NCBI GenBank assembly: GCA_949152475.1
Contig: OX424560.1
Coordinates: 42,486,719-42,550,718, forward strand
Reading direction: 5' to 3'
DNA length: 64,000 bases
Source: Terebella lapidaria
Lineage: Eukaryota > Annelida > Polychaeta > Terebellida > Terebellidae
The translations under genes and the position numbers were made by a program. Positions 20,648-64,000 of the stretch are shown here, in pieces; position 1 is the stretch's first letter; every line of letters begins with the position of its first letter. The notes beneath the pieces were generated by a model, which was given only the letters and a program-made list of their open reading frames with translations, was not told the DNA's origin and did no database searches.

Positions 20648-22018
20648 TTGTATGTTTGTTTGTTTGTTTGTGTGCGCTCTACAGGCCACAGTTCTCATTG
20701 GAAATTCATGAAATCTGGTAGAAAGTTTCTAGGCTGAAAAAGGAAGGTCGCTAGTTCTTTGTTAAGCTCAAGGTCAAATAACAAGGTCAAGGTCACGCAA
20801 AACGTCGAAAACACATAAGTGCTCATTATTCCAGTTCTAATCATCGTAGAGACTTCAAATCAAGTTCATATTGTAGATATACTCGAGTTCTGTCTTCTGT
20901 GACCATGACCTTGACATTTGACCTTGACCTTGAGAAGTATGCCATGAGGTGAATATCAAGGTCAAGTACGAAGGTCAGCGCACTATATCGAGTAGTACAT
21001 TGTTGGAAAGGTCTTGAGTCCCTGATTCCAGTGATATCTCATTTTTGGCGCTGCGACATAAACTGACGTCATAATGACGTCATAAACGTCAAAAATCCGA
21101 AATTTCAAAGGGCCATAACACCGTCAATAGTGAATGGAATCCTTTGAAATTTGATATGCACTTTGACAGCATTGACTTCTACGAATTTAAGTGCAAAGGT
21201 CAAAGGTCAAGGTCAAGGTCATCGAAATCCCAGAAAAACACGTTTCCGGTAATAACATCTGTTTGAATCATTGTGGGCTCATGAAATTTGAACCATGTCA
21301 TTCAGAAGAGGTATATCAATCAGACAAATATGTCAAATCCATGATTGACCTCGAATTTTGTCTATAATCTGACAAAGCTTAATCAGAATCTTATGAGGAT
21401 TCTGGATTTTACAGATATTTTTAATGTTTTCATGGCTCCAATTTTCACAAATTTTCTGAACATTCAATTCTGAAGCATTTCATACAGTCAGGTGCAGTGT
21501 TATTTCTAGTTTATAATGCACTTTTCACATTTGGAATAAATTGAAAACTCGCCGAGATATCAAAGTAGAAAGAGCAGTGGGGTGAATCTGATTCTCAATC
21601 CGTTCACACAACAATAAGCTGCAGAAACGATTACCCCCTGTGGACATGTCCCCTTCTAAATATACACACTCGGTTGAGCAGTAGTACAGTATATCATATA
21701 TGTATCCAAGTGCACATCTCAAACAACAAAACAATTCCTTTGTTTTCAGACTCAGAGGTGTCCAACTGATATAATAAAGCCTAAAACTCATGTCTAAATA
21801 CAGTCTGGGTCAAGCCACAGGCCACTTTATATCAGAACTATTGGGCATGACGAACAGGGGTTTGTGAGCACCGGGTTTGTGAGCATTGTGAGCACTGTTA
21901 CAGGTTTATAGTACATGTAGGGCATTGCCTAAGGCCCAATAGCTTGTATATATGCACCGGATATTATTACTTGACGAAATCAAAGATTTTGTCAAGTATG
22001 TTGATCGGTTCCGTTTGT
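20648..22018 (+). repeat. A satellite monomer 1 (1371 bp)
   Basis: First of seven near-identical A monomers. It starts TTGTATG plus a (TTTG)n tract and GCGCTCTACAGGCCACAG. It then has AGGTCA/TGACCT clusters, a TGACGTCATAATGACGTCAT pair, and a tail from 21841. It ends in a palindromic head, ACTTGACGAAAT/ATTTTGTCAAGT, at 21969-21997 and CCGTTTGT. The length is exactly 1371 bp, the same as all other full A copies. The minus-strand 88-codon frame at 21525-21791 is shared by all copies and is judged non-coding. Confidence 0.9.
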
Positions 22019-22068
22019 TACTTTACGAAATTAAATTTCGTCAAGTATGTTGGTCAGTTGCGTTTGTT

Positions 22069-24300
22069 ACTTGACGAAATGTAAATTTCGTCAAGTATGT
22101 TGGTCAGTTGCGTTTGTCTGTCTGTTTGTTTGTTTGTTTGTTTGTTTATTTGTTAGCGCTCTACAGGTCACAATTTTGATCGTAAAGTCCCGAAAATTTG
22201 TCAAAAGATGTGCAATCAGTACACGACCAAGTGATTAACTTTTGGAAGGTCAAGGTCAAATATTGAGGTCAAGGTCACGCAAAACGATAAAAACACATAA
22301 ATGGCCATAACTCCGGTTCTAATTGTCCCAGAGACTTCAAATCAAGTTCATATTGTAGATAAACTCGAGTTCTATCTTCTGTGACCTTGACCTTGGCATT
22401 TGACTTTGACCTTGAGAAGTTCGCCTAAGGTGAATGTCAAGGTCAAATACGAAGGTCAGCGCACCATATCGAGTAGTATATCGTTGGAAAGGTCTTGACC
22501 CCCTGATTGCAGTGATACCTTATTTTCAGCGCTGCGACGTAAACTGACGTCACAATGACGTCATAAACGTCAAATTTCCGAAATTTCAAAAGGCTATAAC
22601 ATCGTCAATACTGTATGGAATCTCTTGAAACTTGATATGCATATTGACAGCAATGACCTTTACGAATTTAAGTACGAAGGTCAAAGGTCAAGGTCAAGGT
22701 CATCGAAATCCCAGAAAAACACGTTTCCGGTAATAACATCCGTTTGATTTGTCGTAGGTTCATGAATTTTGAACCATATCCTTCAGAAGGGGTATAGTAA
22801 TCGAGTGTATATGTCAATTTCATGATTGACCTTGAATTTTGTCAGGAAAATAAGGTCATATGAGGAAAACTTCAAGGTCAAATTTTCAAACTAACTGAAA
22901 CCTATCAAGTAGTATATCAAATGAAAGGTCTTGATTCCCTGGTACATACTTTCTCATCAATTTTGAGATGTGACGTTTATTGACGTCACAGTGACGTCAT
23001 AAACGTTAATTTTTCGAAATTTCAAACGGTCATAGTGTCCACAAATCTTGTTTGATTCTAATGAAATGATACAGGTATAATATATGTCTTCATGCACAGG
23101 CAATGCACAATTTTCGTGACTCAAGGTCAAAGATCAAGGTCAAGGTCACGCAAAATGTTAAAAACGCATAAGTGGCCATAGCTCCGGTTCTATTTGTTAT
23201 AGAGACTTCAAACCAAGTTCATAATGTAGATAAACTCGAGTCCTATATTCTGTGTCCTTGACCTTGGCATTTGACCTTGACCTTGAGAAGTTCGTCATGA
23301 GGTGAATGTCAAGGTCAAGTACGAAAGTCAGCGCACCATATCGAGTAGTATATCGTTGGAAAGGTTTTGAGCCCCTGATTGCAGTGATACCCTAATTTTG
23401 GCGCTGCGACGTACACTGACGTCACAATGACGTCATAAACGTCAAATTACCGAAATTTCAAAAGGCCATAACAGCGTCAATACTGTATGGAATACCTTGA
23501 AACTTGACATGCATATTAATAGCATTGACCTTTACGAATTGAAATACAAAGGTCAAAGGTCAAGGTCAAGGTCATCGAAATCCCAGAAAAACACCTTTTC
23601 GGTTATAACATCGTTTTTTAATCGTTGTAATTTGAACAATATCATCAGAAGAGGTATAGCAATCAGACTTATATGTCAATTCCATGATTAACCTTGAACT
23701 TGATCGGAAAAATGAGGTCACATGAGCAAAACTTCAAGGTCAAATTTTCAAACTAACTAAAAGCTATCAAGTAATATATCAAATGGAAGGCCTTGAACCC
23801 ATGATGAATAGTTTCCCATCAGTTTTCAAATGTGACGTTTATTGACGTCACAGTGACCTCATGTACGTAAATTTTTCGAAATTTCGAAAAGCCACAGTGT
23901 CCGGAATTCTTGTTCGATTCTGATGGAATTGTTCAAGTATAATTTATATTTTCATGCACGGGCAATGCACAATTTTCGTGACCCAAGGTCAAGGGTCAAG
24001 GTCAAAGAAAAGGTCAAAATCACAAAAATTGCCATAACTTCGGAACTATTCGTCATAGAAAGTTCAAACTGGGACCATATTGTAGCATATCAAAAGGTCT
24101 TTGTCCGCTGACCTTGAATGTGCACTTTGACCTTGACCTTGAAAAGCTTGCCCAACGTAAAAATTTCATGAAAAAAGTATCTTTCTTCAAATGTCGACGA
24201 GTTGTTCAGTAAATCTTTTCAATGTGTAAATTATGGGTAAATGTTTTAAATGTAAACAAATGTTTAGTCATTTCGTCAAGTGTTGGCCTATGGCCGATTT
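22069..24300 (+). mobile_element. Inner HINE-like element nested in the first (2.2 kb)
   Basis: It begins ACTTGACGAAAT (22069-22080) and ends with the exact complement ATTTCGTCAAGT (24270-24281), followed by hairpin GGCC-TAT-GGCC (24285-24295). After the head come (TTTG)n and GCGCTCTACAGGTCACA, then two and a half modules of about 860 bp. Each module has AGGTCA clusters, ACGCAAAA...ACACATAA, GGCCATAACTCCGGTTCTA, TCGAGTAGTATATCGTTGGAAAGG and TGACGTCAcaaTGACGTCA. Its last 110 bp (24190-24300) match 26590-26700, the end of the outer element, so both belong to one subfamily. Confidence 0.65.
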
Positions 24301-24459
24301 TCTGTCTGTCTGTCTGTCTGTTTGTTTGTTTGTTTGTTTGTTAGCGCTCTACAGGTCACAATGTTGATCGTAGAGTGCTGAAAATTTGTCAGAAGTTGTG
24401 CAGTCAGTACTCGACCAAGTGATTAACTTTTGGGAGGTCAAGGTCAAAAATTGAGGTCA

Positions 24460-25640
24460 AGGTCAAGCAAAAGGTCAAAATCGAAAAATCGCGATAACTC
24501 CGTTTTTAATCAATGTTATTTTTTGTAGCTATTTTTATATTTTTCTATGGTCAATTCCGCATCATATGATGCATGCCCGATGGTCGTACAACCAAAACTC
24601 CCGATTTTCGGTCCAGGTCGAAAATTTGGGGGTCACAAATTTAGGTTTTTTTCTACCTCGCAATATTCAAAACCATATTATAGAGCAAATTCCCGATATA
24701 TGTTGCTGATTTTCACTCAGAAGTTGTGCCTTATCACACAAAACACGATTGTGAAGTTATAGGACTCAAGGTCAAGAATTAGAGTTAAGGTCATAGTAAA
24801 GGTCAAAATCGAAAAATTGCAATAACTTGGCTTTTGATCAAAATTAATTTTTCTGAACATTTTTGTATTTTTATTTGGTCAATTCGACATCAGCTGACGT
24901 ATGTCCGATGGTTGTACGACCAAAACTCCCGATTATCGCCCATGGTTGAACATTTGGGGGTTTTCAGATCATTTGTATTTTGTGCAATATTCAAACCGTT
25001 ATTGTGCAGTCAGAATCCGATAGAAGTTGCTGATTTTTAATCAGTAGGTGTGTCTTATCATACTGAACATATGTGTAAAAATGTAGGACTCAAGATCAAG
25101 AATTACAGTTAAAGTCATAGTAAAGGTCAAAATCGAAAAATCGCAATAACTCCGTTTCTATTCAATGTTATTTTTTCTGAGTATTTTTATATTTTTTTAT
25201 GGTCAATTCCGCGCCCTGTGGTGCATGCCCGATGGTCGTACGACCAAAAGTCCCGATTTTCGGTCGAGGTCGAAAATTTGAGGGTCATGATTTTATGGTT
25301 TCATGTCTCGCAACCTTCAACCCCATATTGCGAGGCCAATTTCTGATATGGGTTATTGATTTTTACTCAGGAGTTGTGCCTTATCAAATTGAACAAATCT
25401 GTGGAGTTTCTTAACTCAAGGTTGAAAATTAAGGTCAAGGTCATGTAAAAGGTCAAAATCGAAAAATCGCAATAACTCCACTTTTGATCAACATTAATTT
25501 TTGTCAGTATTTTTGTATTTTTATATGGTTAATTCGGCGTCAAATGGTGTATGTGCGATGGTCGTACGACCAAAAGTCCCGATTATCGCCCGGTGCCGAA
25601 AATCTGGGGGTCATGTGCAAGTTGCATAGTGGTAGCCCTA
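24460..25640 (+). repeat. 325-bp tandem repeat x about 4
   Basis: Four copies with markers at about 24550, 24880, 25200 and 25525. Shared parts are GGTCAATTC.GC, CCGATGGTCGTACGACCAAAA, TCCCGATT.TCG, GGTCAAAATCGAAAAATCGC and ATAACTCC. They form the body of the outer element. Frames of 68-76 codons in each copy are repeat shadows. Confidence 0.85.
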
Positions 25641-26589
25641 GTGTAGTGGCCGCAAAATTACCTCACATAAGTTGCCAATTTATAGGAGATATGAAATGTT
25701 TTATGCAGCTTTGAATACACAAATGTGAAACGTGGACTTTTCTTGCCCTAATTCTCCAATTGAGTTGACTGTGAAAGTTGGTTATCAATACTAGTTTGGG
25801 TTATAAAGTTACAGTTATTTTGGATCGATTACTTCGTGCAGTCATGCCGACATGCATGCGGTCATACATGTACAGTAAATGTTGTTCTCCATGGGGAAGG
25901 GGAATATGACAATTTATTGTATGATGGCTCGGTGGCCGAGTGGTTCCAGCGCTTGCTCTCTAACACGTAGGCTTTTGACTCTGCGAGTTCGAATCTACCT
26001 GCTTTTAAATATTTTTTTTTGCTCTTTATTTTTTTCAAGAATATCCATTACCATTATAATCTATTATAGTATTATGAATATACACTGTTGAATGATCATT
26101 TGGTACGAATATGGCGTGCAAAAATTATCGTTGCCTCTGTCATATAACACCAGTATGGCATGCAAAAACGGCCATCACGATCTGCTTGAACTCATTAGAT
26201 AGTTCTCCGAAGATGAAGCATCATGATATGAAAGTTACCAAGTTGTAGTAACGAACATTTATAGCAGTGTTGTATTTTATAATTTTTCTTATATTGACAT
26301 CATCAAAATTTTGTGCTGTTAGTAGTATATATTATGTTGATACACACATCGATTGAATGTTTTGAATGAGTCAGTCTCAAATGGCTGGGTCTTGCTCAGG
26401 AGACGTCATAAAGATTCAATATGTATGTCTGCTCAGGAGTTGTGCATTATTAATTCTAACAAATTTGTGAAAATTCAGAATTCAAGGGCCAAGGTCACTG
26501 TGAAAATGAAGCAACTCTTGTCTAATTTCTAAAATTGTGAATTCTTCTGCTGGGTGATGCTCAGGAGGTGTCTTAAAAGTGCCAATTTC
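25641..26589. other. Unrelated filler inside the outer element
   Basis: About 0.95 kb that is not homologous to the AGGTCA satellites. It has AT-rich sequence, two ATGGC(A/G)TGCAAAAA motifs (about 26112 and 26156), and the tRNA-like piece described separately. It may be captured genomic DNA. No coding exon recognised. Confidence 0.45.
25925..26003 (+). tRNA. tRNA-like sequence (Leu/Ser-type boxes), probably not functional
   Basis: A perfect class II-type A-box, TGGCCGAGTGG (25933-25943), and a B-box, GAGTTCGAATC (25985-25995), are followed by a T-rich pol III-type stop at about 26012. The acceptor stem does not pair with the 3' side and the anticodon arm is poor, so I cannot read an anticodon. 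A tRNA pseudogene or SINE head is the best reading. Confidence 0.4.
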
Positions 26590-26701
26590 TAATGCTAGAA
26601 GTTGTTCAGTATATCTTTTCAATGTGTAATTAATGAGTAAATGTTTTAAATGTAAACAAATGTTTAGTTATTTCGTCAAGTGTTGGCCTATGGCCGATTT
26701 T

Positions 26702-28072
26702 TTGTATGTTTGTTTGTTTGTTTGTGTGCGCTCTACAGGCCACAGTTCTCATTGGAAATTCATGAAATCTGGTAGAAAGTTTCTAGGCTGAAAAAGGAAG
26801 GTCGCTAGTTCTTTGTTAAGCTCAAGGTCAAATAACAAGGTCAAGGTCACGCAAAACGTCGAAAACACATAAGTGCTCATTATTCCAGTTCTAATCATCG
26901 TAGAGACTTCAAATCAAGTTCATATTGTAGATATACTCGAGTTCTGTCTTCTGTGACCATGACCTTGACATTTGACCTTGACCTTGAGAAGTATGCCATG
27001 AGGTGAATATCAAGGTCAAGTACGAAGGTCAGCGCACTATATCGAGTAGTACATTGTTGGAAAGGTCTTGAGTCCCTGATTCCAGTGATATCTCATTTTT
27101 GGCGCTGCGACATAAACTGACGTCATAATGACGTCATAAACGTCAAAAATCCGAAATTTCAAAGGGCCATAACACCGTCAATAGTGAATGGAATCCTTTG
27201 AAATTTGATATGCACTTTGACAGCATTGACTTCTACGAATTTAAGTGCAAAGGTCAAAGGTCAAGGTCAAGGTCATCGAAATCCCAGAAAAACACGTTTC
27301 CGGTAATAACATCTGTTTGAATCATTGTGGGCTCATGAAATTTGAACCATGTCATTCAGAAGAGGTATATCAATCAGACAAATATGTCAAATCCATGATT
27401 GACCTCGAATTTTGTCTATAATCTGACAAAGCTTAATCAGAATCTTATGAGGATTCTGGATTTTACAGATATTTTTAATGTTTTCATGGCTCCAATTTTC
27501 ACAAATTTTCTGAACATTCAATTCTGAAGCATTTCATACAGTCAGGTGCAGTGTTATTTCTAGTTTATAATGCACTTTTCACATTTGGAATAAATTGAAA
27601 ACTCGCCGAGATATCAAAGTAGAAAGAGCAGTGGGGTGAATCTGATTCTCAATCCGTTCACACAACAATAAGCTGCAGAAACGATTACCCCCTGTGGACA
27701 TGTCCCCTTCTAAATATACACACTCGGTTGAGCAGTAGTACAGTATATCATATATGTATCCAAGTGCACATCTCAAACAATAAAACAATTCCTTTGTTTT
27801 CAGACTCAGAGGTGTCCAACTGATATAATAAAGCCTAAAACTCATGTCTAAATACAGTCTGGGTCAAGCCACAGGCCACTTTATATCAGAACTATTGGGC
27901 ATGACGAACAGGGGTTTGTGAGCACCGGGTTTGTGAGCATTGTGAGCACTGTTACAGGTTTATAGTACATGTAGGGCATTGCCTAAGGCCCAATAGCTTG
28001 TATATATGCACCGGATATTATTACTTGACGAAATCAAAGATTTTGTCAAGTATGTTGATCGGTTCCGTTTGT
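26702..28072 (+). repeat. A satellite monomer 2 (1371 bp)
   Basis: Same start, end and length as monomer 1; the one difference seen is C to T at about 27780. Its palindromic head is at 28023-28051. It lies between the first and second inserted elements. Confidence 0.9.
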
Positions 28073-28659
28073 TACTTGCCGGAATCTCCGATTTCGGCAA
28101 GTATGTTGGTTGGTTGGTTTGTGGATTTGTTTGTTTGTTCGCACTCTAGCGTCCACATTTCTGGTTCGATTGTTTCCAAACTTGGTGAGCACATTCTCTA
28201 GGATAATGGCTCGGACGAGTTCGAAGATGGAAGAAATCGGTTCATTGATGACGTCACCAAAAATCATTGAAAATCGAAAAATCCCTATCTTTTAACATGG
28301 GGCGATGTTCACAAATTTATAACTCGCTTAATTTGCATTGAATCGTTTCGAAATTTTGAACATCTGTATAGAATGACAACCTCTATAAACGCTATAAGTT
28401 TGATCCGGATCGGATTCGGATTACGGATTTGACAGCCAATTGAATTTAACATTGAAAGCTCCATTTAACACATTCTTTTTGTTCGCATTCTAGCGTCTAC
28501 AGTTTTTGTGTAATCATCACGAAACTTTTTTGGTAGATAGGCATTTGCCCATGAAAAGCACCGCACGTTTTGGAAAAAAAATCGGTTCATTGATGACGTC
28601 ACCAAAAATCATTGAAAATCGAAAAATCCCTATCTCTCATCATTGGCGAATTTTCAAAA

Positions 28660-29645
28660 ATTCCCACAGCAGTCACATTTGAACCGATACTTCTGAAATT
28701 CAGCACACGGATATATATTGGTATCCCCCATCAAACTGCGAAGTTTTACCCGGATTGTTTGAACGTCAATGACGTCACGACGTGAAAGGTCATTTTTCAA
28801 AATGGGGCTATATATCGGAAAGTATTTGTCGTACAGAGAAGCGAATTGCACCATTGGAAAGCTCCTTGAATTCTGGTTCAGAAGGGTACTGTCCGATACT
28901 TTTCCGCTATGATAGATTTTCCGCTATGACGTCATAAACGTAAGGCCTGTCATACCAATTTTTCGACTTTTCAGCAAACTTTCAAACATCCACAGTGCAC
29001 TCAATTTTGAGGTTATTAGGCTGTAATTATCAGAACGTATGTGGAATAATGATACCCAGCCATGTACTAAGTTTCAACACGCTACGTGTAACGTCAATGA
29101 CGTCATGACGTAAAACGTCAATTTTCGAAATCGGGCTATATATCAAAAAGTATTTGTCGTACAGAGAAGCGAATTGCACCATTGGAAAGCTCGTTGAATT
29201 CTATTTCAGAACGATACTGTCCGATACTTTTCCGTCATGATAGATTTTCCGCTATGACGTCATAAACGTAACGCCTGTCATACCAATTTTTCGACTTTTC
29301 AGCAAACTTTCAAACATCCACAGTGCACTCAAATTTAAAGGTATTGGACTGTAATTATCAGAACGTATGAAGAATGATGATATCCAGTCATATACCAAGT
29401 TTCAGCATGCTACGGGCAACGTCAATGACGTCATGACGTAAAACGTCAATTTTCGAAATGGGGCTATATATCGAAAAGTATTTGTCGTACAGAAAAACGG
29501 ATTGCACCATTGGAAAGCTCGTTGAATTCTAGTTTAGGAGGGTACTGTCCGATACTTTTCCGCCATGATAGATTTTCCGCTATGACGTCATAAACGGAAG
29601 GCCTGTCATACCAATATTTCGACTTTTCAGCCAACTCTCAAACTT
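28660..29645 (+). repeat. 328-bp tandem repeat x 3 (C repeat, copy 1)
   Basis: Three copies with GGGCTATATATC markers at about 28805, 29133 and 29461. Each has AACGTCAATGACGTCATGACG, TATTTGTCGTACAGAGAAGCG, CCATTGGAAAGCTC, GATACTTTTCCG and GCTATGACGTCATAAACG. Two TGACGTCA-type sites occur per unit. The same array recurs at 57970-58925. Confidence 0.85.
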
Positions 29646-29699
29646 TGACAGTGCACTTCAATTTAAAGGTATTATATATATAGACTATAATTATCAGAA

Positions 29700-30317
29700 C
29701 AATAGAATTAGATAAAAGGGTGACTATGGAAAACATGTCAGAATTAATACAAAAAAACACGCAGAAACAGAAAAAGTAATTTAGTTGGAATTTAAAAAAA
29801 AAAAGTGGCAATAGGTACCGAACCCGCGCACCAAGACCTAACGCCTTTACTGACTGAGCCAATCCGTCACTTGAAAGTTATTGCGTGTGAAGCATATTAT
29901 AGCCTACAAGAGACCGCGCTCAGAATGAATGCAGGTATATCCCATGGTTGCGCATTGGTGTGGCTGCTGTGGCGGCAGCGTGAAGAATTTTTCGAGACTT
30001 TTTTGTGACCTCTTCACACTTGACCGATTTTCACGAAAATTGAACCGTTTCTAGCCTTCAACCTCGGTGTATGGTTGGGTATTATTATTCCACATGGGTT
30101 TCGCGATATTAAATCAAAATCAAGCCTGAAGCAGAAAACACAAAGAATCTACTACTTGGTGCCTTTATGGAGATAACAAAAGCGTTTCATGAATATGAGA
30201 GGAATATTTCACTGTGTCTTCGGATGAACTATTTGATCGAGCTACAATTTTCATTGCAAACTGTTGTATTTTACGTTTGTTTTTGGCATCATCAAACTCC
30301 GACTGCATCATACAGGT
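29700..30317. other. Unrelated filler inside the 7.2-kb element
   Basis: Not homologous to the satellites. It begins where the third 328-bp repeat breaks off (after TTATCAGAAC) and ends where an AGGTCA module resumes. It holds a minus-strand tRNA-like piece and no recognisable exon. Possibly captured DNA. Confidence 0.45.
29805..29870 (-). tRNA. tRNA-like sequence, probably not functional
   Basis: On the minus strand there is an A-box TGGCTCAGTCAG (complement of 29850-29861) and a B-box GGGTTCGGTACC (complement of 29814-29825), followed by a run of T. The acceptor stem pairs only partly (GTGACGGA against TATTGCCAC). Best read as a tRNA pseudogene or SINE head. Confidence 0.4.
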
Positions 30318-31437
30318 TAAATTTCCGAAATTCCAAAATGCCATAACAGCGTCAATACTGTATGGAGCATCCTGCAACTTGATATACCCATTGATAGCAT
30401 TGACCTCTACGAATTTAAGTGCAAAGGTCAAGAGTCAAGGTCAAGGTCATCGAAATCCCAGAAAAACACTTTTTCTGTGATAACATCCGTTTGAATTGTT
30501 GTAGGTTCATGAAATTTGAACCATATCATTCAGAAGAGGTATAGCAATCGGACCTATATGTCAAATTCATGATTGACCTTGAACTTGGTCAGGAAAATAA
30601 GGTCATATGAGGAGAACTTCAAGGTCAAATTTTAAAACTAACTGAAACCTATCGAGTAGTATATTAAATGAAAGGTCTTGATTCTCTGGTACATACTTTC
30701 TCATCAGTTTTCAGTTGTGACGTTTATTGACGTCACAGTGACGTCATAAACGTTAATTTTTCGAAATTTCAGAAGGTCATATTGTCCACAAAGCTTGTTC
30801 GATTCTGATGAAATTATACAGGTATAATACATGTCTTCATGCACAGGCAATGCACAATTTTCGTGACTCAAGATCAAAGGTCAAGGTCAAGGTCACGCAA
30901 AATGTTAAAAACACATAAGTGGCCATAACTCCAGTTCTATTCGTTATAGAGACTTCGAACCAAGTTCATATTGTAGATAAACTCGAGTTCTATCTTCAGT
31001 GACCTTGACCTTGGCATTTGACCTTGACCTTGAGAAGTTCACCATGAGGTGAATGTCAAGGTCAAGTACGAAGGTCAGCGCACCATACCGAGTAGTATAT
31101 CGTTGGAAAGGTCTTGGGCCCCTGATTCTTGTGATATCTTGTTTTTGGCGCTGCGACGTACAATGACGTCGCTGACCATTTTGGTGTATTTCACTTAATT
31201 GAAGATGACACGAAAAAAACTATCCCTGAGTATATATTCAGAAGAAATATAAATAACGAAACTGTAAAACAATTTAGGAATAAACTCTCGAAAACTAATT
31301 TCAATGATGTATTAACTACTTCCGACCCTAATAAAGCGTACAATATATTTATTGACAAATATAAATCCATATACGAGGACTCATTCCCTATCAAAAAGAT
31401 CAAATATAACAAGAAATATATCAAAAGAGTTCCATGG

Positions 31438-33432: not shown

Positions 33433-33619
33433 TGTAAGTATACTCTCGTCTTCCGGACCTGGCCGTCCACATACCCTCCAGTTACGACCAGAGTCGCGAT
33501 ACGACATCAAACGGAGACCGAGCGAACAATTGTCCCAGTGCGAATGGTTGTCCTGTATATATGCCGTGTTATGAATGTGCTTACGATTATTCTATGTGGG
33601 TGCGGGTTTTTGGTATTCA

Positions 33620-33821
33620 TGTCGTGTGTGTGTGTGTGTATGTATGTATATAGGTGTGTGTGTGTGTGCGTGCGTGGGTGTGTGTGTGTGTGGGAGGGGG
33701 TGTATGTGTGTAGTGGTTTGTATGAGGGTGTGTGATTTTGAGTCATGACGTGTTGCATGTGTGATGATGTATGATATGGGTGACGTGCTTTGTATAATAA
33801 ATGTTGAAAGTTTGTGTAGGT

Positions 33822-33852
<31 letters not shown>
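33620..33852 (+). repeat. (TG)n microsatellite and poly-G in the LINE 3' UTR
   Basis: TG-rich tracts lie at about 33624-33720 and 33815-33835, ending in 17 G residues (33836-33852). They produce spurious C/V- or H/T-rich frames on both strands. Confidence 0.9.
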
Positions 33853-35177: not shown

Positions 35178-35247
35178 ATTCCGGCAAGTACTCGCTGTAC
35201 CAGCGAAGGCTTTCAGCCGTCAAGTCAGCAGCAGCGAGCGATTTCAT

Positions 35248-36618: not shown

Positions 36619-36619
36619 T

Positions 36620-51600: not shown

Positions 51601-54600
51601 AGAACTTCATTACTTGCCAGAATCTTCGATTTTGGCAAGTATGTTGGTCAGTTGGTTTGTGGATGTGTTTGTCTGTTTGTTTGTTTGTGCCCACTCTAGC
51701 GTCCCCAATTCTTGATCGAAACCTTACAAAAGTCGTGTATATATTCTGTGAACTTGTGGCAAGAAAACGTCCTATTTTGGTGTGTAAAGGTCGAAGGTCA
51801 AGGTCAAGGTCACGCAAAACGTCGAAAACACATAAGTGGTCATAACTTCGGTTCTAATGGTCCTAGAGACTTCAAATTAAGTTCATATTGTAGATAAACT
51901 CGAGTTCTATCTTCTGTGACCTTGATCTCGACATTTGACCTTGACCTTGAGAAGTTCGCCTGAGGTCGAAGTCAAGGTCAAGTACGAAGGTCGGCGCAGC
52001 ATATCGAGTAGTATATCGTTAGAAAGGTCTTGAGCCCCTGATTCCAATGATATCTTATTTTTTGCGCTGCGACGTAAACTGACGTCACAATGACATCATA
52101 AACGTCGAAAATCCGAAATTTCAAAAGGCCATAACCTCGTCAATAGTGTATGGAATCCATTGAAACTTGATATGCATATTGACAGCATTGACCTCTACGA
52201 CTTGAAGTGCAAAGGTCAAAGGTCAAGGTCAAGGTCATCGAAATCCCAGAAAAACACGTTTCCGGTAATAACATCTGTTGGAATTGTCGTAGGTTCATGA
52301 AATTTGAACCATGTCATTCAGAAGAGGTATATCAATCAGACAAATATGTCAATTCTATGATTGACCTCGAACTTTGTCTATAATCTGACAAAACTTAATC
52401 AGAATCTTATGAGGATTCTGGATTTTATAGATATTTTTAATGTTTTCATGGCTCCAATTTTCACAAATTTACTGAACATTCAATTCTAAAGCATTTCATA
52501 CAGTCAGTTGCAGTGTTATTTCTAGTTTATAATGCACTTTTTACATTTGGAATAAATTGAAAACTCGCCGAGATATCAAAGTAGAAAGAGCAATGGGGTG
52601 AATCTGATTCTCAATCCGTTCACACAACAATAAGCTGTAGAAACGATTACCCCCTGTGGACATGTCCCCTTCTAAATATACACACTCGGTTGAACAGTAG
52701 TACAGTATATCATATATGTATCCAAGTGCACATCTCAAACAATGAAACAATTCTTTTGTTTTCTGACTCACAGGTGTCCAACTGATATAATAAAGTCTAA
52801 AACTCATGTCTAAATACAGTCTGGGTCAAGCCACAGGCCACTTTATATCAGAACTTCATTACTTGCCAGAATCTTCGATTTTGGCAAGTATGTTGGTCAG
52901 TTGGTTTGTGGATGTGTTTGTCTGTTTGTTTGTTTGTGCCCACTCTAGCGTCCCCAATTCTTGATCGAAACCTTACAAAAGTCGTGTATATATTCTGTGA
53001 ACTTGTGGCAAGAAAACGTCCTATTTTGGTGTGTAAAGGTCGAAGGTCAAGGTCAAGGTCACGCAAAACGTCGAAAACACATAAGTGGTCATAACTTCGG
53101 TTCTAATGGTCCTAGAGACTTCAAATTAAGTTCATATTGTAGATAAACTCGAGTTCTATCTTCTGTGACCTTGATCTCGACATTTCACCTTGACCTTGAG
53201 ATGTTCGCTTGAGGTCGAAGTCAAGGTCAAGTACGAAGGTCGGCGCAGCATATCGAGTAGTATATCGTTAGAAAGGTCTTGAGCCCCTGATTCCAATGAT
53301 ATCTTATTTTTTGCGCTGCGACGTAAACTGACGTCACAATGACATCATAAACGTCGAAAATCCGAAATTTCAAAAGGCCATAACCTCGTCAATAGTGTAT
53401 GGAATCCATTGAAACTTGATATGCATATTGACAGCATTGACCTCTACGACTTGAAGTGCAAAGGTCAAAGGTCAAGGTCAAGGTCATCGAAATCCCAGAA
53501 AAACACGTTTCCGGTAATAACATCTGTTGGAATTGTCGTAGGTTCATGAAATTTGAACCATGTCATTCAGAAGAGGTATATCAATCAGACAAATATGTCA
53601 ATTCTATGATTGACCTCGAACTTTGTCTATAATCTGACAAAACTTAATCAGAATCTTATGAGGATTCTGGATTTTATAGATATTTTTAATGTTTTCATGG
53701 CTCCAATTTTCACAAATTTACTGAACATTCAATTCTAAAGCATTTCATACAGTCAGTTGCAGTGTTATTTCTAGTTTATAATGCACTTTTTACATTTGGA
53801 ATAAATTGAAAACTCGCCGAGATATCAAAGTAGAAAGAGCAATGGGGTGAATCTGATTCTCAATCCGTTCACACAACAATAAGCTGTAGAAACGATTACC
53901 CCCTGTGGACATGTCCCCTTCTAAATATACACACTCGGTTGAACAGTAGTACAGTATATCATATATGTATCCAAGTGCACATCTCAAACAATGAAACAAT
54001 TCTTTTGTTTTCTGACTCACAGGTGTCCAACTGATATAATAAAGTCTAAAACTCATGTCTAAATACAGTCTGGGTCAAGCCACAGGCCACTTTATATCAG
54101 AACTTCATTACTTGCCAGAATCTTCGATTTTGGCAAGTATGTTGGTCAGTTGGTTTGTGGATGTGTTTGTCTGTTTGTTTGTTTGTGCCCACTCTAGCGT
54201 CCCCAATTCTTGATCGAAACCTTACAAAAGTCGTGTATATATTCTGTGAACTTGTGGCAAGAAAACGTCCTATTTTGGTGTGTAAAGGTCGAAGGTCAAG
54301 GTCAAGGTCACGCAAAACGTCGAAAACACATAAGTGGTCATAACTTCGGTTCTAATGGTCCTAGAGACTTCAAATTAAGTTCATATTGTAGATAAACTCG
54401 AGTTCTATCTTCTGTGACCTTGATCTCGACATTTCACCTTGACCTTGAGAAGTTCGCCTGAGGTCGAAGTCAAGGTCAAGTACGAAGGTCGGCGCAGCAT
54501 ATCGAGTAGTATATCGTTAGAAAGGTCTTGAGCCCCTGATTCCAATGATATCTTATTTTTTGCGCTGCGACGTAAACTGACGTCACAATGACATCATAAA

Positions 54601-57600
54601 CGTCGAAAATCCGAAATTTCAAAAGGCCATAACCTCGTCAATAGTGTATGGAATCCATTGAAACTTGATATGCATATTGACAGCATTGACCTCTACGACT
54701 TGAAGTGCAAAGGTCAAAGGTCAAGGTCAAGGTCATCGAAATCCCAGAAAAACACGTTTCCGGTAATAACATCTGTTGGAATTGTCGTAGGTTCATGAAA
54801 TTTGAACCATGTCATTCAGAAGAGGTATATCAATCAGACAAATATGTCAATTCTATGATTGACCTCGAACTTTGTCTATAATCTGACAAAACTTAATCAG
54901 AATCTTATGAGGATTCTGGATTTTATAGATATTTTTAATGTTTTCATGGCTCCAATTTTCACAAATTTACTGAACATTCAATTCTAAAGCATTTCATACA
55001 GTCAGTTGCAGTGTTATTTCTAGTTTATAATGCACTTTTTACATTTGGAATAAATTGAAAACTCGCCGAGATATCAAAGTAGAAAGAGCAATGGGGTGAA
55101 TCTGATTCTCAATCCGTTCACACAACAATAAGCTGTAGAAACGATTACCCCCTGTGGACATGTCCCCTTCTAAATATACACACTCGGTTGAACAGTAGTA
55201 CAGTATATCATATATGTATCCAAGTGCACATCTCAAACAATGAAACAATTCTTTTGTTTTCTGACTCACAGGTGTCCAACTGATATAATAAAGTCTAAAA
55301 CTCATGTCTAAATACAGTCTGGGTCAAGCCACAGGCCACTTTATATCAGAACTTCATTACTTGCCAGAATCTTCGATTTTGGCAAGTATGTTGGTCAGTT
55401 GGTTTGTGGATGTGTTTGTCTGTTTGTTTGTTTGTGCCCACTCTAGCGTCCCCAATTCTTGATCGAAACCTTACAAAAGTCGTGTATATATTCTGTGAAC
55501 TTGTGGCAAGAAAACGTCCTATTTTGGTGTGTAAAGGTCGAAGGTCAAGGTCAAGGTCACGCAAAACGTCGAAAACACATAAGTGGTCATAACTTCGGTT
55601 CTAATGGTCCTAGAGACTTCAAATTAAGTTCATATTGTAGATAAACTCGAGTTCTATCTTCTGTGACCTTGATCTCGACATTTCACCTTGACCTTGAGAT
55701 GTTCGCTTGAGGTCGAAGTCAAGGTCAAGTACGAAGGTCGGCGCAGCATATCGAGTAGTATATCGTTAGAAAGGTCTTGAGCCCCTGATTCCAATGATAT
55801 CTTATTTTTTGCGCTGCGACGTAAACTGACGTCACAATGACATCATAAACGTCGAAAATCCGAAATTTCAAAAGGCCATAACCTCGTCAATAGTGTATGG
55901 AATCCATTGAAACTTGATATGCATATTGACAGCATTGACCTCTACGACTTGAAGTGCAAAGGTCAAAGGTCAAGGTCAAGGTCATCGAAATCCCAGAAAA
56001 ACACGTTTCCGGTAATAACATCTGTTGGAATTGTCGTAGGTTCATGAAATTTGAACCATGTCATTCAGAAGAGGTATATCAATCAGACAAATATGTCAAT
56101 TCTATGATTGACCTCGAACTTTGTCTATAATCTGACAAAACTTAATCAGAATCTTATGAGGATTCTGGATTTTATAGATATTTTTAATGTTTTCATGGCT
56201 CCAATTTTCACAAATTTACTGAACATTCAATTCTAAAGCATTTCATACAGTCAGTTGCAGTGTTATTTCTAGTTTATAATGCACTTTTTACATTTGGAAT
56301 AAATTGAAAACTCGCCGAGATATCAAAGTAGAAAGAGCAATGGGGTGAATCTGATTCTCAATCCGTTCACACAACAATAAGCTGTAGAAACGATTACCCC
56401 CTGTGGACATGTCCCCTTCTAAATATACACACTCGGTTGAACAGTAGTACAGTATATCATATATGTATCCAAGTGCACATCTCAAACAATGAAACAATTC
56501 TTTTGTTTTCTGACTCACAGGTGTCCAACTGATATAATAAAGTCTAAAACTCATGTCTAAATACAGTCTGGGTCAAGCCACAGGCCACTTTATATCAGAA
56601 CTTCATTACTTGCCAGAATCTTCGATTTTGGCAAGTATGTTGGTCAGTTGGTTTGTGGATGTGTTTGTCTGTTTGTTTGTTTGTGCCCACTCTAGCGTCC
56701 CCAATTCTTGATCGAAACCTTACAAAAGTCGTGTATATATTCTGTGAACTTGTGGCAAGAAAACGTCCTATTTTGGTGTGTAAAGGTCGAAGGTCAAGGT
56801 CAAGGTCACGCAAAACGTCGAAAACACATAAGTGGTCATAACTTCGGTTCTAATGGTCCTAGAGACTTCAAATTAAGTTCATATTGTAGATAAACTCGAG
56901 TTCTATCTTCTGTGACCTTGATCTCGACATTTCACCTTGACCTTGAGAAGTTCGCCTGAGGTCGAAGTCAAGGTCAAGTACGAAGGTCGGCGCAGCATAT
57001 CGAGTAGTATATCGTTAGAAAGGTCTTGAGCCCCTGATTCCAATGATATCTTATTTTTTGCGCTGCGACGTAAACTGACGTCACAATGACATCATAAACG
57101 TCGAAAATCCGAAATTTCAAAAGGCCATAACCTCGTCAATAGTGTATGGAATCCATTGAAACTTGATATGCATATTGACAGCATTGACCTCTACGACTTG
57201 AAGTGCAAAGGTCAAAGGTCAAGGTCAAGGTCATCGAAATCCCAGAAAAACACGTTTCCGGTAATAACATCTGTTGGAATTGTCGTAGGTTCATGAAATT
57301 TGAACCATGTCATTCAAAAGAGGTATATCAATCAGACAAATATGTCAATTCTATGATTGACCTCGAACTTTGTCTATAATCTGACAAAACTTAATCAGAA
57401 TCTTATGAGGATTCTGGATTTTATAGATATTTTTAATGTTTTCATGGCTCCAATTTTCACAAATTTACTGAACATTCAATTCTAAAGCATTTCATACAGT
57501 CAGTTGCAGTGTTATTTCTAGTTTATAATGCACTTTTTACATTTGGAATAAATTGAAAACTCGCCGAGATATCAAAGTAGAAAGAGCAATGGGGTGAATC

Positions 57601-57851
57601 TGATTCTCAATCCGTTCACACAACAATAAGCTGTAGAAACGATTACCCCCTGTGGACATGTCCCCTTCTAAATATACACACTCGGTTGAACAGTAGTACA
57701 GTATATCATATATGTATCCAAGTGCACATCTCAAACAATGAAACAATTCTTTTGTTTTCTGACTCACAGGTGTCCAACTGATATAATAAAGTCTAAAACT
57801 CATGTCTAAATACAGTCTGGGTCAAGCCACAGGCCACTTTATATCAGAACT
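36620..57851 (+). repeat. B satellite: 17 tandem copies of a 1249-bp monomer
   Basis: Monomers start at 36620, 37870, 39119, 40368, 41617, 42866, 44115, 45364, 46619, 47868, 49117, 50366, 51612, 52861, 54110, 55359 and 56608. Most are exactly 1249 bp. Monomer 1 has +1 (T run), monomer 8 +6 (one extra GGTCAA) and monomer 12 -3. Each has the palindromic head, (TTTG)n, CACTCTAGCGTCCCCA, about 12 AGGTCA/TGACCT half-sites, one TGACGTCA, and an A-like end to TATATCAGAACT. Copies differ at only a few positions each (about 99 percent identity or more) and show a higher-order pattern. B lacks the A tail of about 120 bp. Repeated frames of 61-88 codons on both strands are judged non-coding. Confidence 0.95.
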
Positions 57852-57969
57852 ATTGGGGACGACGAACCGGCGGATGTATCAGTCCCATTCCCGGTTTTTA
57901 GCGGTAATTTGTCTCAGGACCAGAGGTCCTGTACATGCACCATACATCTCTCTTTTTTTTTTGAATTTT
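57852..57969. other. Spacer after the B array
   Basis: The first 16 bases (ATTGGGGACGACGAAC) match the A tail (ATTGGGCATGACGAAC), showing that the last B monomer keeps the ancestral continuation lost from internal copies. The rest is unmatched. It includes a perfect hairpin, CAGGACC-AGA-GGTCCTG (about 57914-57930), and a T run. Confidence 0.55.
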
Positions 57970-58925
57970 CAGAAATTCACACAGCACTCACATTTGGACC
58001 GATACTTCTGAAATTCAGCGCACTGATATATAATGGTATTTTCCATTAAAATGTGAAGTTTTACTCGGATTGGTCGAACGTCAATGACGTTATGACGTAA
58101 AACGTCAATTTTCGAAATGGGGCTATATATCGAAAAGTATTTGTCGTACAGAGAAGCGAATTGCACCATTGGAAAGCTCGTTGAATTCTGGTTTAGAAGG
58201 GTACTGTCCGATACTTTTCCACTATGATATATTTTCCACTATGACGTCATAAACGTAAGGACTGTCATACCAAATTTTCGACTTTTCACCAACTATCAAA
58301 CATCCACAATGCACTCAAATTTGAAGGTATTGGAATATAATTATCAGAATGTATGTGAAATAATAATACCCAGCCATACACCAAGTTTCAACACGCTACA
58401 TGCAACGTTGATGACGTCATGACGTAAAACGTCAATTTTCGAAATGGGGCTATATATCGAAAAGTATTTGTCGTACAGAGAAGCGAATGACTCCATTGGA
58501 AAGCTCGTTGAATTCTTGCTTGGAAGCGTACTGTCCGATACTTTTCCGCAATGAAAGATTTTCCGCTATGACGTCATAAACGTAAGGCCTGTCTTACCAA
58601 TTTTTCGACTTTCCAGCGAACTTTCAAATATCTACAGCGCACTCACATTTGAAAATATTGGACTGGATGTGGAATCATAATGCTTAGCTATATTCCGAGT
58701 TTCAACACGCTACGTGCAACGTCAATGACGTCATGACGTAAAACGTCAATTTACAAAATGGGGCTATATATAGGGAAATATTTATCATACAGAGAAACGG
58801 CTTGCACCATTGGAAAGCTCGTTGAATTCTGGTTTACGAGAGCACTTTCCAATACTTTTTCGCAATGACAGATTTTCCGCAAAGACGTCATAAACGTAAG
58901 GCCAGTCATACTTTTTAGCAAACCT
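57970..58925 (+). repeat. 328-bp tandem repeat x 3 (C repeat, copy 2)
   Basis: GGGCTATATATC markers at about 58120, 58447 and 58761. Same unit as 28660-29645, with scattered differences and a small deletion in the third copy. The minus-strand 60-66 codon frames are repeat shadows. Confidence 0.85.
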
Positions 58926-59180
58926 TCAAGCATTCGAGGTCAAGTACGAAGTTCAGCTCACCATATCGAGTAGTATACCGTTAGAATGTTGTTGGTCTCC
59001 TGAGTCCAGTGATATTTTAATTTTGACGCTGTGACATTCAATGACAGTATGAGTAGTTTGTGAAGTAAAGTGAAGTAAAATGAAGTGAAGTAAGGAAGTA
59101 AACGTAGTAAGTAGGATAGTAAGTGTCGTCAATTTGCTCAAATCCATATGTCCTGTCATTGGCATATTACATATATTTTG
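58926..59180. repeat. 3' part of the 22.6-kb element with (GAAGT)n
   Basis: It starts with an AGGTCAAGTACGAAG...TCGAGTAGTATACCGTTAGAA fragment of the A/B body. A degenerate (GAAGT/AAAGT)n tract (about 59057-59115) and about 65 bp leading to the end motif follow. No gene. Confidence 0.6.
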
Positions 59181-59213
59181 GTTCTGGCAAGTGTGTGCCC
59201 TATGGGCTCTCGT

Positions 59214-62200
59214 TTGTATGTTTGTTTGTTTGTTTGTGTGCGCTCTACAGGCCACAGTTCTCATTGGAAATTCATGAAATCTGGTAGAAAGTTTCTAGGC
59301 TGAAAAAGGAAGGTCGCTAGTTCTTTGTTAAGCTCAAGGTCAAATAACAAGGTCAAGGTCACGCAAAACGTCGAAAACACATAAGTGCTCATTATTCCAG
59401 TTCTAATCATCGTAGAGACTTCAAATCAAGTTCATATTGTAGATATACTCGAGTTCTGTCTTCTGTGACCATGACCTTGACATTTGACCTTGACCTTGAG
59501 AAGTATGCCATGAGGTGAATATCAAGGTCAAGTACGAAGGTCAGCGCACTATATCGAGTAGTACATTGTTGGAAAGGTCTTGAGTCCCTGATTCCAGTGA
59601 TATCTCATTTTTGGCGCTGCGACATAAACTGACGTCATAATGACGTCATAAACGTCAAAAATCCGAAATTTCAAAGGGCCATAACACCGTCAATAGTGAA
59701 TGGAATCCTTTGAAATTTGATATGCACTTTGACAGCATTGACTTCTACGAATTTAAGTGCAAAGGTCAAAGGTCAAGGTCAAGGTCATCGAAATCCCAGA
59801 AAAACACGTTTCCGGTAATAACATCTGTTTGAATCATTGTGGGCTCATGAAATTTGAACCATGTCATTCAGAAGAGGTATATCAATCAGACAAATATGTC
59901 AAATCCATGATTGACCTCGAATTTTGTCTATAATCTGACAAAGCTTAATCAGAATCTTATGAGGATTCTGGATTTTACAGATATTTTTAATGTTTTCATG
60001 GCTCCAATTTTCACAAATTTTCTGAACATTCAATTCTGAAGCATTTCATACAGTCAGGTGCAGTGTTATTTCTAGTTTATAATGCACTTTTCACATTTGG
60101 AATAAATTGAAAACTCGCCGAGATATCAAAGTAGAAAGAGCAGTGGGGTGAATCTGATTCTCAATCCGTTCACACAACAATAAGCTGCAGAAACGATTAC
60201 CCCCTGTGGACATGTCCCCTTCTAAATATACACACTCGGTTGAGCAGTAGTACAGTATATCATATATGTATCCAAGTGCACATCTCAAACAACAAAACAA
60301 TTCCTTTGTTTTCAGACTCAGAGGTGTCCAACTGATATAATAAAGCCTAAAACTCATGTCTAAATACAGTCTGGGTCAAGCCACAGGCCACTTTATATCA
60401 GAACTATTGGGCATGACGAACAGGGGTTTGTGAGCACCGGGTTTGTGAGCATTGTGAGCACTGTTACAGGTTTATAGTACATGTAGGGCATTGCCTAAGG
60501 CCCAATAGCTTGTATATATGCACCGGATATTATTACTTGACGAAATCAAAGATTTTGTCAAGTATGTTGATCGGTTCCGTTTGTTTGTATGTTTGTTTGT
60601 TTGTTTGTGTGCGCTCTACAGGCCACAGTTCTCATTGGAAATTCATGAAATCTGGTAGAAAGTTTCTAGGCTGAAAAAGGAAGGTCGCTAGTTCTTTGTT
60701 AAGCTCAAGGTCAAATAACAAGGTCAAGGTCACGCAAAACGTCGAAAACACATAAGTGCTCATTATTCCAGTTCTAATCATCGTAGAGACTTCAAATCAA
60801 GTTCATATTGTAGATATACTCGAGTTCTGTCTTCTGTGACCATGACCTTGACATTTGACCTTGACCTTGAGAAGTATGCCATGAGGTGAATATCAAGGTC
60901 AAGTACGAAGGTCAGCGCACTATATCGAGTAGTACATTGTTGGAAAGGTCTTGAGTCCCTGATTCCAGTGATATCTCATTTTTGGCGCTGCGACATAAAC
61001 TGACGTCATAATGACGTCATAAACGTCAAAAATCCGAAATTTCAAAGGGCCATAACACCGTCAATAGTGAATGGAATCCTTTGAAATTTGATATGCACTT
61101 TGACAGCATTGACTTCTACGAATTTAAGTGCAAAGGTCAAAGGTCAAGGTCAAGGTCATCGAAATCCCAGAAAAACACGTTTCCGGTAATAACATCTGTT
61201 TGAATCATTGTGGGCTCATGAAATTTGAACCATGTCATTCAGAAGAGGTATATCAATCAGACAAATATGTCAAATCCATGATTGACCTCGAATTTTGTCT
61301 ATAATCTGACAAAGCTTAATCAGAATCTTATGAGGATTCTGGATTTTACAGATATTTTTAATGTTTTCATGGCTCCAATTTTCACAAATTTTCTGAACAT
61401 TCAATTCTGAAGCATTTCATACAGTCAGGTGCAGTGTTATTTCTAGTTTATAATGCACTTTTCACATTTGGAATAAATTGAAAACTCGCCGAGATATCAA
61501 AGTAGAAAGAGCAGTGGGGTGAATCTGATTCTCAATCCGTTCACACAACAATAAGCTGCAGAAACGATTACCCCCTGTGGACATGTCCCCTTCTAAATAT
61601 ACACACTCGGTTGAGCAGTAGTACAGTATATCATATATGTATCCAAGTGCACATCTCAAACAACAAAACAATTCCTTTGTTTTCAGACTCAGAGGTGTCC
61701 AACTGATATAATAAAGCCTAAAACTCATGTCTAAATACAGTCTGGGTCAAGCCACAGGCCACTTTATATCAGAACTATTGGGCATGACGAACAGGGGTTT
61801 GTGAGCACCGGGTTTGTGAGCATTGTGAGCACTGTTACAGGTTTATAGTACATGTAGGGCATTGCCTAAGGCCCAATAGCTTGTATATATGCACCGGATA
61901 TTATTACTTGACGAAATCAAAGATTTTGTCAAGTATGTTGATCGGTTCCGTTTGTTTGTATGTTTGTTTGTTTGTTTGTGTGCGCTCTACAGGCCACAGT
62001 TCTCATTGGAAATTCATGAAATCTGGTAGAAAGTTTCTAGGCTGAAAAAGGAAGGTCGCTAGTTCTTTGTTAAGCTCAAGGTCAAATAACAAGGTCAAGG
62101 TCACGCAAAACGTCGAAAACACATAAGTGCTCATTATTCCAGTTCTAATCATCGTAGAGACTTCAAATCAAGTTCATATTGTAGATATACTCGAGTTCTG

Positions 62201-64000
62201 TCTTCTGTGACCATGACCTTGACATTTGACCTTGACCTTGAGAAGTATGCCATGAGGTGAATATCAAGGTCAAGTACGAAGGTCAGCGCACTATATCGAG
62301 TAGTACATTGTTGGAAAGGTCTTGAGTCCCTGATTCCAGTGATATCTCATTTTTGGCGCTGCGACATAAACTGACGTCATAATGACGTCATAAACGTCAA
62401 AAATCCGAAATTTCAAAGGGCCATAACACCGTCAATAGTGAATGGAATCCTTTGAAATTTGATATGCACTTTGACAGCATTGACTTCTACGAATTTAAGT
62501 GCAAAGGTCAAAGGTCAAGGTCAAGGTCATCGAAATCCCAGAAAAACACGTTTCCGGTAATAACATCTGTTTGAATCATTGTGGGCTCATGAAATTTGAA
62601 CCATGTCATTCAGAAGAGGTATATCAATCAGACAAATATGTCAAATCCATGATTGACCTCGAATTTTGTCTATAATCTGACAAAGCTTAATCAGAATCTT
62701 ATGAGGATTCTGGATTTTACAGATATTTTTAATGTTTTCATGGCTCCAATTTTCACAAATTTTCTGAACATTCAATTCTGAAGCATTTCATACAGTCAGG
62801 TGCAGTGTTATTTCTAGTTTATAATGCACTTTTCACATTTGGAATAAATTGAAAACTCGCCGAGATATCAAAGTAGAAAGAGCAGTGGGGTGAATCTGAT
62901 TCTCAATCCGTTCACACAACAATAAGCTGCAGAAACGATTACCCCCTGTGGACATGTCCCCTTCTAAATATACACACTCGGTTGAGCAGTAGTACAGTAT
63001 ATCATATATGTATCCAAGTGCACATCTCAAACAACAAAACAATTCCTTTGTTTTCAGACTCAGAGGTGTCCAACTGATATAATAAAGCCTAAAACTCATG
63101 TCTAAATACAGTCTGGGTCAAGCCACAGGCCACTTTATATCAGAACTATTGGGCATGACGAACAGGGGTTTGTGAGCACCGGGTTTGTGAGCATTGTGAG
63201 CACTGTTACAGGTTTATAGTACATGTAGGGCATTGCCTAAGGCCCAATAGCTTGTATATATGCACCGGATATTATTACTTGACGAAATCAAAGATTTTGT
63301 CAAGTATGTTGATCGGTTCCGTTTGTTTGTATGTTTGTTTGTTTGTTTGTGTGCGCTCTACAGGCCACAGTTCTCATTGGAAATTCATGAAATCTGGTAG
63401 AAAGTTTCTAGGCTGAAAAAGGAAGGTCGCTAGTTCTTTGTTAAGCTCAAGGTCAAATAACAAGGTCAAGGTCACGCAAAACGTCGAAAACACATAAGTG
63501 CTCATTATTCCAGTTCTAATCATCGTAGAGACTTCAAATCAAGTTCATATTGTAGATATACTCGAGTTCTGTCTTCTGTGACCATGACCTTGACATTTGA
63601 CCTTGACCTTGAGAAGTATGCCATGAGGTGAATATCAAGGTCAAGTACGAAGGTCAGCGCACTATATCGAGTAGTACATTGTTGGAAAGGTCTTGAGTCC
63701 CTGATTCCAGTGATATCTCATTTTTGGCGCTGCGACATAAACTGACGTCATAATGACGTCATAAACGTCAAAAATCCGAAATTTCAAAGGGCCATAACAC
63801 CGTCAATAGTGAATGGAATCCTTTGAAATTTGATATGCACTTTGACAGCATTGACTTCTACGAATTTAAGTGCAAAGGTCAAAGGTCAAGGTCAAGGTCA
63901 TCGAAATCCCAGAAAAACACGTTTCCGGTAATAACATCTGTTTGAATCATTGTGGGCTCATGAAATTTGAACCATGTCATTCAGAAGAGGAATATCAATC
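59214..64000 (+). repeat. A satellite monomers 4-7 in direct tandem
   Basis: Complete 1371-bp monomers lie at 59214-60584, 60585-61955 and 61956-63326, and a partial one runs from 63327 to the window edge. They read as identical to each other and nearly identical to monomers 1-3. The junction CCGTTTGT|TTGTATG is uninterrupted here, giving the empty form of the site that is occupied after monomers 1, 2 and 3. The heads are at 60535, 61906 and 63277. The array continues beyond the window. Confidence 0.95.

Follow-up and report, generated by a model that had tools for sequence, protein, structure and literature searches.

Both satellites and all of the large inserts in the stretch of Terebella lapidaria DNA analysed here (64,000 nucleotides, called the window below) are very probably HINEs (rolling-circle mobile elements of the non-autonomous Helentron type) that nest in the heads of their own kind. 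In this light, the alternation of a constant monomer with variable inserts comes near to a bracket grammar, in which a head opens, a tail closes and insertion takes place at TTTGT, and this bracket reading yields the order of insertion within the satellite region. While the parts are of a known kind, the scale and the exactness of the self-nesting after TTTGT in the head are new to us, as is the target-regenerating logic. Head-in-head nesting helps build and break up the satellite arrays of this genome, tying the target preference of HINEs to the birth and the break-up of satellites, and an element whose head bears its own preferred target can keep accumulating in one place.

The A array and its filled sites

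A preliminary description of the window, made from the letters alone, had proposed that one junction of a 1371-bp satellite unit (A) is intact three times and split three times by insertions. These observations are borne out. The junction is intact at 60584/60585, 61955/61956 and 63326/63327, the only three occurrences of CCGTTTGTTTGTATG in the window (zero expected by chance), and it is split at 22018/26702, 28072/35248 and 36618/59214, exactly to the base on both sides, with 4683, 7175 and 22595 bases separating the halves. The extra T that had been claimed does precede ACTTG at all three split junctions, and six of the six complete A units measure 1371 bp. What does not survive is the reading of this junction as the boundary of the unit. 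The real boundary is the start of a hairpin (..ATTAT|TACTTG), relative to which the phase originally chosen is permuted by 51 bp. The so-called A/A junction lies 51 bp from the start of the A unit and 20 bp past the hairpin TACTTGACGAAATC..GATTTTGTCAAGTA, where a microsatellite has its first TTTGT, so that the finding concerns a site within the head. The unit starts with the hairpin TACTTGACGAAATCAAAGATTTTGTCAAGTA, followed by TGTTGATCGGTTCCG and then by the TTTG microsatellite, and joints between units read ..GGATATTAT|TACTTG. In an unfilled head, the hairpin (fold of 60534-60565) has a predicted energy of -9.7 kcal/mol, with a z of -7.9.

Two more filled sites can be added, one inside insert 1, at 22067/24301, and, as a probable fifth case, 20647/20648, where a tail runs directly into an A unit without a head. 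The string CCGTTTGTACTTG, earlier suggested as a mark of filled sites, has no match, because a filled site reads CCGTTTGT-T-ACTTG. By itself, CCGTTTGTTTGTATG is a poor marker at the scale of the genome (362 matches versus 233 in a reversed control, probably because of TTTG runs). When the window is extended by the neighboring 20 kb, 15 A units (20648-74295, window numbering) differ from the unit at 61956 by 0-1 base, and the units between the inserts are as near-identical as those outside. The array extends to approximately 78,298, closing with a full copy (75,615-78,298) and with a tail of its own, ATTTCGTCAAGC..CGACCTATGGTCG, whose inverted arm matches at 11 of 12 bases; a stack of three heads then begins. 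The features of the window are listed below.

Features of the satellite region, in window numbering; A units are given in the phase of the preliminary description.
Feature	Positions	Strand	Details
Element 0, HINE 3' tail running into headless unit A1	20475..20647	+	inverted arm AATCCGGCAAGT 20615-20626, then GCCCTAGGGGC
A unit 1: body, then head of next unit	20648..22018	+	hairpin from 21968
Insert 1, outer HINE 1a	22019..26701	+	head 22019-22067; body resumes 24301; arm 26670-26681 (11/12); end GGCCTATGGCCGATTTT
HINE 1b, nested in 1a head at homologous site	22068..24300	+	inverted arm 24270-24281 (12/12)
A unit 2	26702..28072	+	head hairpin from 28022
Insert 2, HINE	28073..35247	+	arms ACTTGCCGGAAT / ATTCCGGCAAGT (35178-35189), 12/12; tail hairpin; non-LTR-type reverse transcriptase inside
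Passenger reverse-transcriptase frame (stop to stop) in insert 2	31135..33429	+	PF00078, 5e-37
A unit 3	35248..36618	+	head hairpin from 36568
Insert 3, 17 heads and one tail	36619..59213	+	spacing ~1249 bp; inverted arm 59181-59192 (11/12)
A units 4-6 and part of unit 7	59214..64000	+	59214-60584, 60585-61955, 61956-63326
Unfilled A head (example)	60534..60606	+	hairpin 60534-60564, spacer, TTTG microsatellite

Anatomy and relatives of the inserts

The inserts had been taken for three different large elements, but they are relatives of the satellite unit itself, with which they have a core in common (about 81-93% across stretches of ~280 bases to 1.1 kb). All start with a head of the A-like kind; at the other end, the 5' arm reappears inverted and is followed by a small 3' palindrome. 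Heads open with TACTTG (TACTTT in 1a, the one exception) and possess a 5' hairpin and a TTTG-type microsatellite, the TTTG/CTGT runs sitting ~20 bp past the hairpin. The 5' arms are ACTTTACGAAAT in 1a, ACTTGACGAAAT in 1b, ACTTGCCGGAAT in insert 2 and ACTTGCCAGAAT in insert 3, and the inverted 3' arm agrees with them at 12 of 12 bases in 1b and insert 2 and at 11 of 12 in 1a and insert 3. Between the inverted arm and the end lie the palindromes GGCCTATGGCC, GCCCTATGGGC and CGCTGTACCAGCG. Four of four head hairpins fold strongly (z -6.6 to -9.1), and the four tails folded are weakly structured (z 0 to -1.9). At the three A sites, the host continues without target duplication apart from one T.

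Insert 1 proves to be two elements, with 1b entering 1a at GCGTTTGT^CTGTCTG, i.e., at T^C and not at T^T. In insert 2, homology to the core is broken at ~31170/33988, with the reverse transcriptase frame between the halves, and the three best protein-search matches of this frame also bear an endonuclease domain; it is the single large frame of the inserts, and a passenger, and we have accordingly set aside the idea of protein-coding inserts. Structured RNA or rRNA/snRNA arrays were also considered and rejected, the window having no Rfam match at the gathering threshold. Insert 3 (the B array) ends in a full-length copy (56607-59213). Element 0 is represented by its 3' side alone, with homology to dispersed repeats beginning at ~20475 and with no head found upstream within the window. 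Part of its tail (20475-20573) is 84% like a unit on contig C16 (14.15-14.20 Mb) that is repeated every ~1739 bases, possibly another HINE-derived array.

Five structural and target-site traits of HINEs are found here: a 5' subterminal arm of ~11-15 bp with its adjacent complement, forming a palindrome; a microsatellite within the 5' module; the 5' arm repeated in inverted form close to the 3' end; a short palindrome separating this inverted arm from the 3' end, for which support from folding is weak; and insertion into T-rich or TT sites without target duplication, with 1b in 1a as the exception. Insert 3, in addition, has the organization of rolling-circle tandem arrays, with several 5' ends, one 3' end and inner copies truncated at 3'. 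A canonical Helitron (Helitron1, with 5' TC, 3' CTRR and insertion between A and T) does not fit the ends observed, which are TACTTG.. and ..GATTTT, ..CTCTCGT or ..TTCAT, with T as the left flanking base.

The preliminary description knew of no system of this kind. However, three papers (PMC7492417, PMC4067079, PMC12628747) already describe the anatomy of HINEs and Helentrons, their targeting of TT, arrays resembling satellites, and tandem copies truncated at 3'. One example is Cg_HINE of the oyster Crassostrea gigas, for which a 5' subTIR of 11-12 bp with its complement, a microsatellite, internal repeats, a 3' subTIR and a palindrome are described, along with a preference for TT and no target duplication (PMC7492417). 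Another is HINE-Mo of a mite, of similar anatomy (PMC4067079). The elements of the window resemble these HINE or DINE-1-like elements in the 5' arm with its complement, the microsatellite and the internal repeats, as well as in the inverted 3' arm, the 3' palindrome and the T-rich/TT target (PMC7492417, PMC4067079); unlike them, they have ~1000 copies inside the heads of other copies. Extra Ts in variable number have been reported as a Helentron trait (PMC4067079), and the ends of Helitron2/Helentron elements are covered by PMC5148889; further literature comprises PMC11136912, PMC5876387 and PMC5139131. Helitron arrays in which many 5' ends go with a single 3' end appear in PMC12628747 and PMC7492417, both citing Xiong et al. 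(2016), and insert 3, with its 17 heads, one tail and inner 3' truncation, is like these, but it differs from them, as they are presented there, in having HINE ends and a five-unit higher-order pattern and in sitting in the head of another array. Nested or shuffled Helitron loci are reported for the oyster (PMC12628747), and those 'shuffled' Helitron/satellite loci likewise involve truncated, tandemized elements inside other elements; unlike in that account, nesting here is mostly at one kind of site and in one orientation. For published HINEs and Helitrons, the cited passages describe insertion into other repeats and Helitron clusters without this positional rule (PMC7492417, PMC4067079). Among the titles and opening lines of abstracts listed on nested or self-inserted Helitrons and Helentrons, none presents it as a rule that elements enter the head microsatellite of other copies, which does not prove that such a report is absent.

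A Helentron Rep/helicase/endonuclease, supplied in trans, would nick the T-rich strand at TTTGT^T, and the single-stranded element would be joined there. The target would then regenerate, because each new copy carries the same target in its own head, and nests would grow. The 1371- and 1249-bp monomers may have arisen separately, from copies without a 3' terminator that would have been amplified into arrays with many heads and a single tail. Several findings count against this explanation. The 3' end of the A unit (..GGATATTAT) does not simply match a truncated form of the full-length A copy (75,615-78,298). The exact repetition of the insertion site (three of three in A, and the homologous site in 1a) exceeds what a preference for TTTGT alone predicts, and 1b sits at T^C. 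In addition, as detailed below, some nests are not clean brackets, and no autonomous Helentron with these termini was found at the loci examined.

Nesting across the genome and the choice of target

We scanned the entire assembly (761.6 Mb, 438 contigs) and found 6,014 matches to the head core CAAGTATGTTGRT, versus 46 for a reversed-pattern control, and 1,011 head-in-head junctions, versus none in such a control, with a gap limit of 30 bases that hides the last TTTGT sites of A. No reversed element is seen inside a head anywhere in the genome, with a pattern that covers tails having C before the arm (two main types), and there is no match to the head pattern in viral contigs. Among the 100 junctions listed, which all come from contig C1 and are not independent, 77 end in TTTGT^, these same 77 reading TTTGT^TACTTG, and 100 end in T; the site is the first TTTGT past the hairpin in 48, a later TTTGT in 29 and another T-ending string in 23. 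Such natural junctions, ~1000 in number, can be used for measuring target choice and end processing of Helentrons. A T also precedes each of 137 heads, counted once per position and drawn from loci chosen mostly for being nested (56 nested in a head, 49 at array unit joints, 16 after a tail, 16 other). As to isolated heads, 20 places without near neighbors were chosen from 100 listed matches to the head core; two of these turned out not to be heads and one is decayed, and of the 17 intact heads left, all follow T and six follow TTTGT, one of these six being inside a decayed head and two within TTTG runs that belong to a different repeat. Isolated copies sit in non-head DNA as well. At four loci (L010, L036, L069, L074), heads have been inserted into TTTG runs that belong to a different repeat family (..ATTGGGTCTGTCCGTTTGTATGTTTGT|TACTTG, with variants).

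The nests can also be followed at their closing ends. Ten of the 44 body starts listed directly follow a tail and the remainder of a microsatellite, and where the case is clear, the copy that was interrupted continues from the very next base. In a 30-kb stretch of C1 (from 38,541,000), A units are filled at the first TTTGT at 8295 and 16,088, resuming at 11,384 and 21,034, and an additional filling is found at a later TTTGT, at 11,400. Within this stretch, positions 16,088-21,033 (L041-L043; G000:C1:38,557,087-38,562,032) possess two bodies and two tails, with arms at 18,556 and 21,001, behind one head, and either a head has been lost here or a terminator has been passed over; deletion between head copies is our guess for a lost head. 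When the ten body starts are taken together with the joint 11,383/11,384 of the C1 stretch, seven of these 11 closing joints pair one-to-one with an opening head; of the other four, two belong to the one-head, two-tail stretch, one is the headless case at 20648 and one, at ~82,862 beyond the window, is left unassigned. A strict bracket grammar is therefore rejected, with 7/11 joints clean, one head serving two tails in C1 and a headless tail at 20648. Stacking can be dense, eight consecutive heads occupying ~430 bases at one locus (L045, 409-835; G000:C1:47,349,408-47,349,834), each starting after a T that lies past the hairpin of the head before it. Eight head positions recur between G000:C1:33,429,141-33,437,480 and 33,484,864-33,493,203 at a constant offset of 55,723 bases, which suggests a large recent segmental duplication, and a second set of heads recurs on C1 at an offset of 71,837 bases (33,451,997 and 33,523,834).

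The notion of highly site-specific T/T insertion near a palindromic head comes close to the truth, except that other TTTGT sites and sites outside heads are used as well. Filled junctions at other phases of the unit, which had been named as an observation that would speak against it, do exist in part, since later TTTGT sites of heads are also filled. The composition of the A unit is informative in this respect: it contains 132 TT, 12 TTTGT (seven in the first 90 bases) and six TTTGTT (four in the head), and all four copies of GTTTGTT are inside the head. Being so concentrated there, (G)TTTGTT as a preferred target, cut at (G)TTTGT^T, accounts for the targeting of heads, even if it does not by itself explain the T^C hit in 1a. 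Recognition of the head, as opposed to base preference alone, would be another way of choosing the target: the transposase would bind the resident 5' hairpin and nick at a fixed distance from it, which is the first TTTGT^. We regard such homing as unlikely. All three A insertions, at one of six TTTGTT sites, would coincide with a chance of approximately 1/36 if the six were used equally, and both these and the insertion in 1a, despite C as the next base there, fall at the first TTTGT past the hairpin. In addition, among the 32 A-type hosts of the 100 listed junctions, 17 are filled exactly at the first site, nine at the first site with extra Ts and six at later ones, but these junctions are not independent and the gap limit hid the last A sites. 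Against homing speaks the fact that isolated copies, too, are preceded more often by TTTGT than by any other five bases (6/17), and the use of TTTG runs of another repeat family (L010, L036) favors base preference over head recognition. Were homing on heads to operate, every insertion would recreate its own target, and self-feeding nests of one strand, such as the eight consecutive heads at L045, would form both a sink for elements and a factory of satellites, with multi-head arrays moving whole by way of a single tail. We ascribe the shared junction mostly to a preference for T^T targets, which the element finds again and again in its own head, with some bias toward the first TTTGT remaining.

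Two further alternatives were considered. In one, which we consider improbable, the inserts never entered an existing array; instead, in a single concerted event, the Rep nuclease would have linked several HINEs, as circles or single strands, into a mixed concatemer, and this product would then have been integrated. The 15 A units, whether they precede or follow the inserts, are all within 0-1 base of one unit, and from such near-identity it can be argued that array and inserts are both very recent; joints of tail to head between different elements do exist; and the two bodies and two tails behind one head in C1 fit a joined product. However, every insert in the window is complete and has ends of its own, with closure exact to the base, and similar nests occur in many combinations. 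The B units also point to a separate past. The 17 units of insert 3 (window 36619-57851) have more private changes than the A units, and the variants that they share come back every five units, in a higher-order period of ~6.25 kb: the pattern of units 1-5 returns in units 6-10 and, in part, in units 11-14, so that the B array has its own history of amplification. A donor of insert 3 with the same private change was sought, but across the genome the 3-base deletion seen in the B12 head has a single occurrence, the one in the window, and thus lends no support to transfer of the whole array as one unit. Copying of the A/1a junction together with its surroundings is rejected, the junction of the A head with 1a being single-copy in the assembly. 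The other alternative, an assembly artefact in which identical units were mis-joined around unrelated contigs, appears very improbable to us. Near-identity of units over 20 kb does mean that the copy number could be wrong, but 1,011 similar junctions throughout the genome obey the sequence rule, the inserts of the window are closed to the base and the junction of the A head with 1a, as noted, is single-copy. Nesting of HINEs in the heads of resident HINEs is the explanation that we retain.

Potential autonomous partners

One open frame of 2325 aa in the genome encodes OTU, Rep, PIF1 helicase and endonuclease domains, the make-up of Helentrons according to PMC4067079, and Helitron_like_N has at least 150 scored matches, many of them in open frames longer than 2,000 aa. 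No autonomous Helentron with the termini of the HINEs was found at any of 12 loci with 1.5-kb flanks; there were likewise no matching termini in 16 kb around one Rep-helicase and no convincing ones in five upstream regions of 5.5 kb, and 9 kb around another Rep-helicase has heads on one side and no matching tail. Both ACTTGNC ends occur together at none of the Rep-helicase loci examined. A Helentron-type Rep-helicase frame of 1979 aa is located on the minus strand ~7 kb upstream of the window (L060; G000:C6:42,479,400-42,484,900), with no heads of the window's kind in the 5.5 kb beside it. The window itself has, at 16083-16397 (+), a weak match to the Replication protein A OB domain (24.7 bits, for a cut-off of 27), which may come from a host gene or from an RPA carried by a Helentron.
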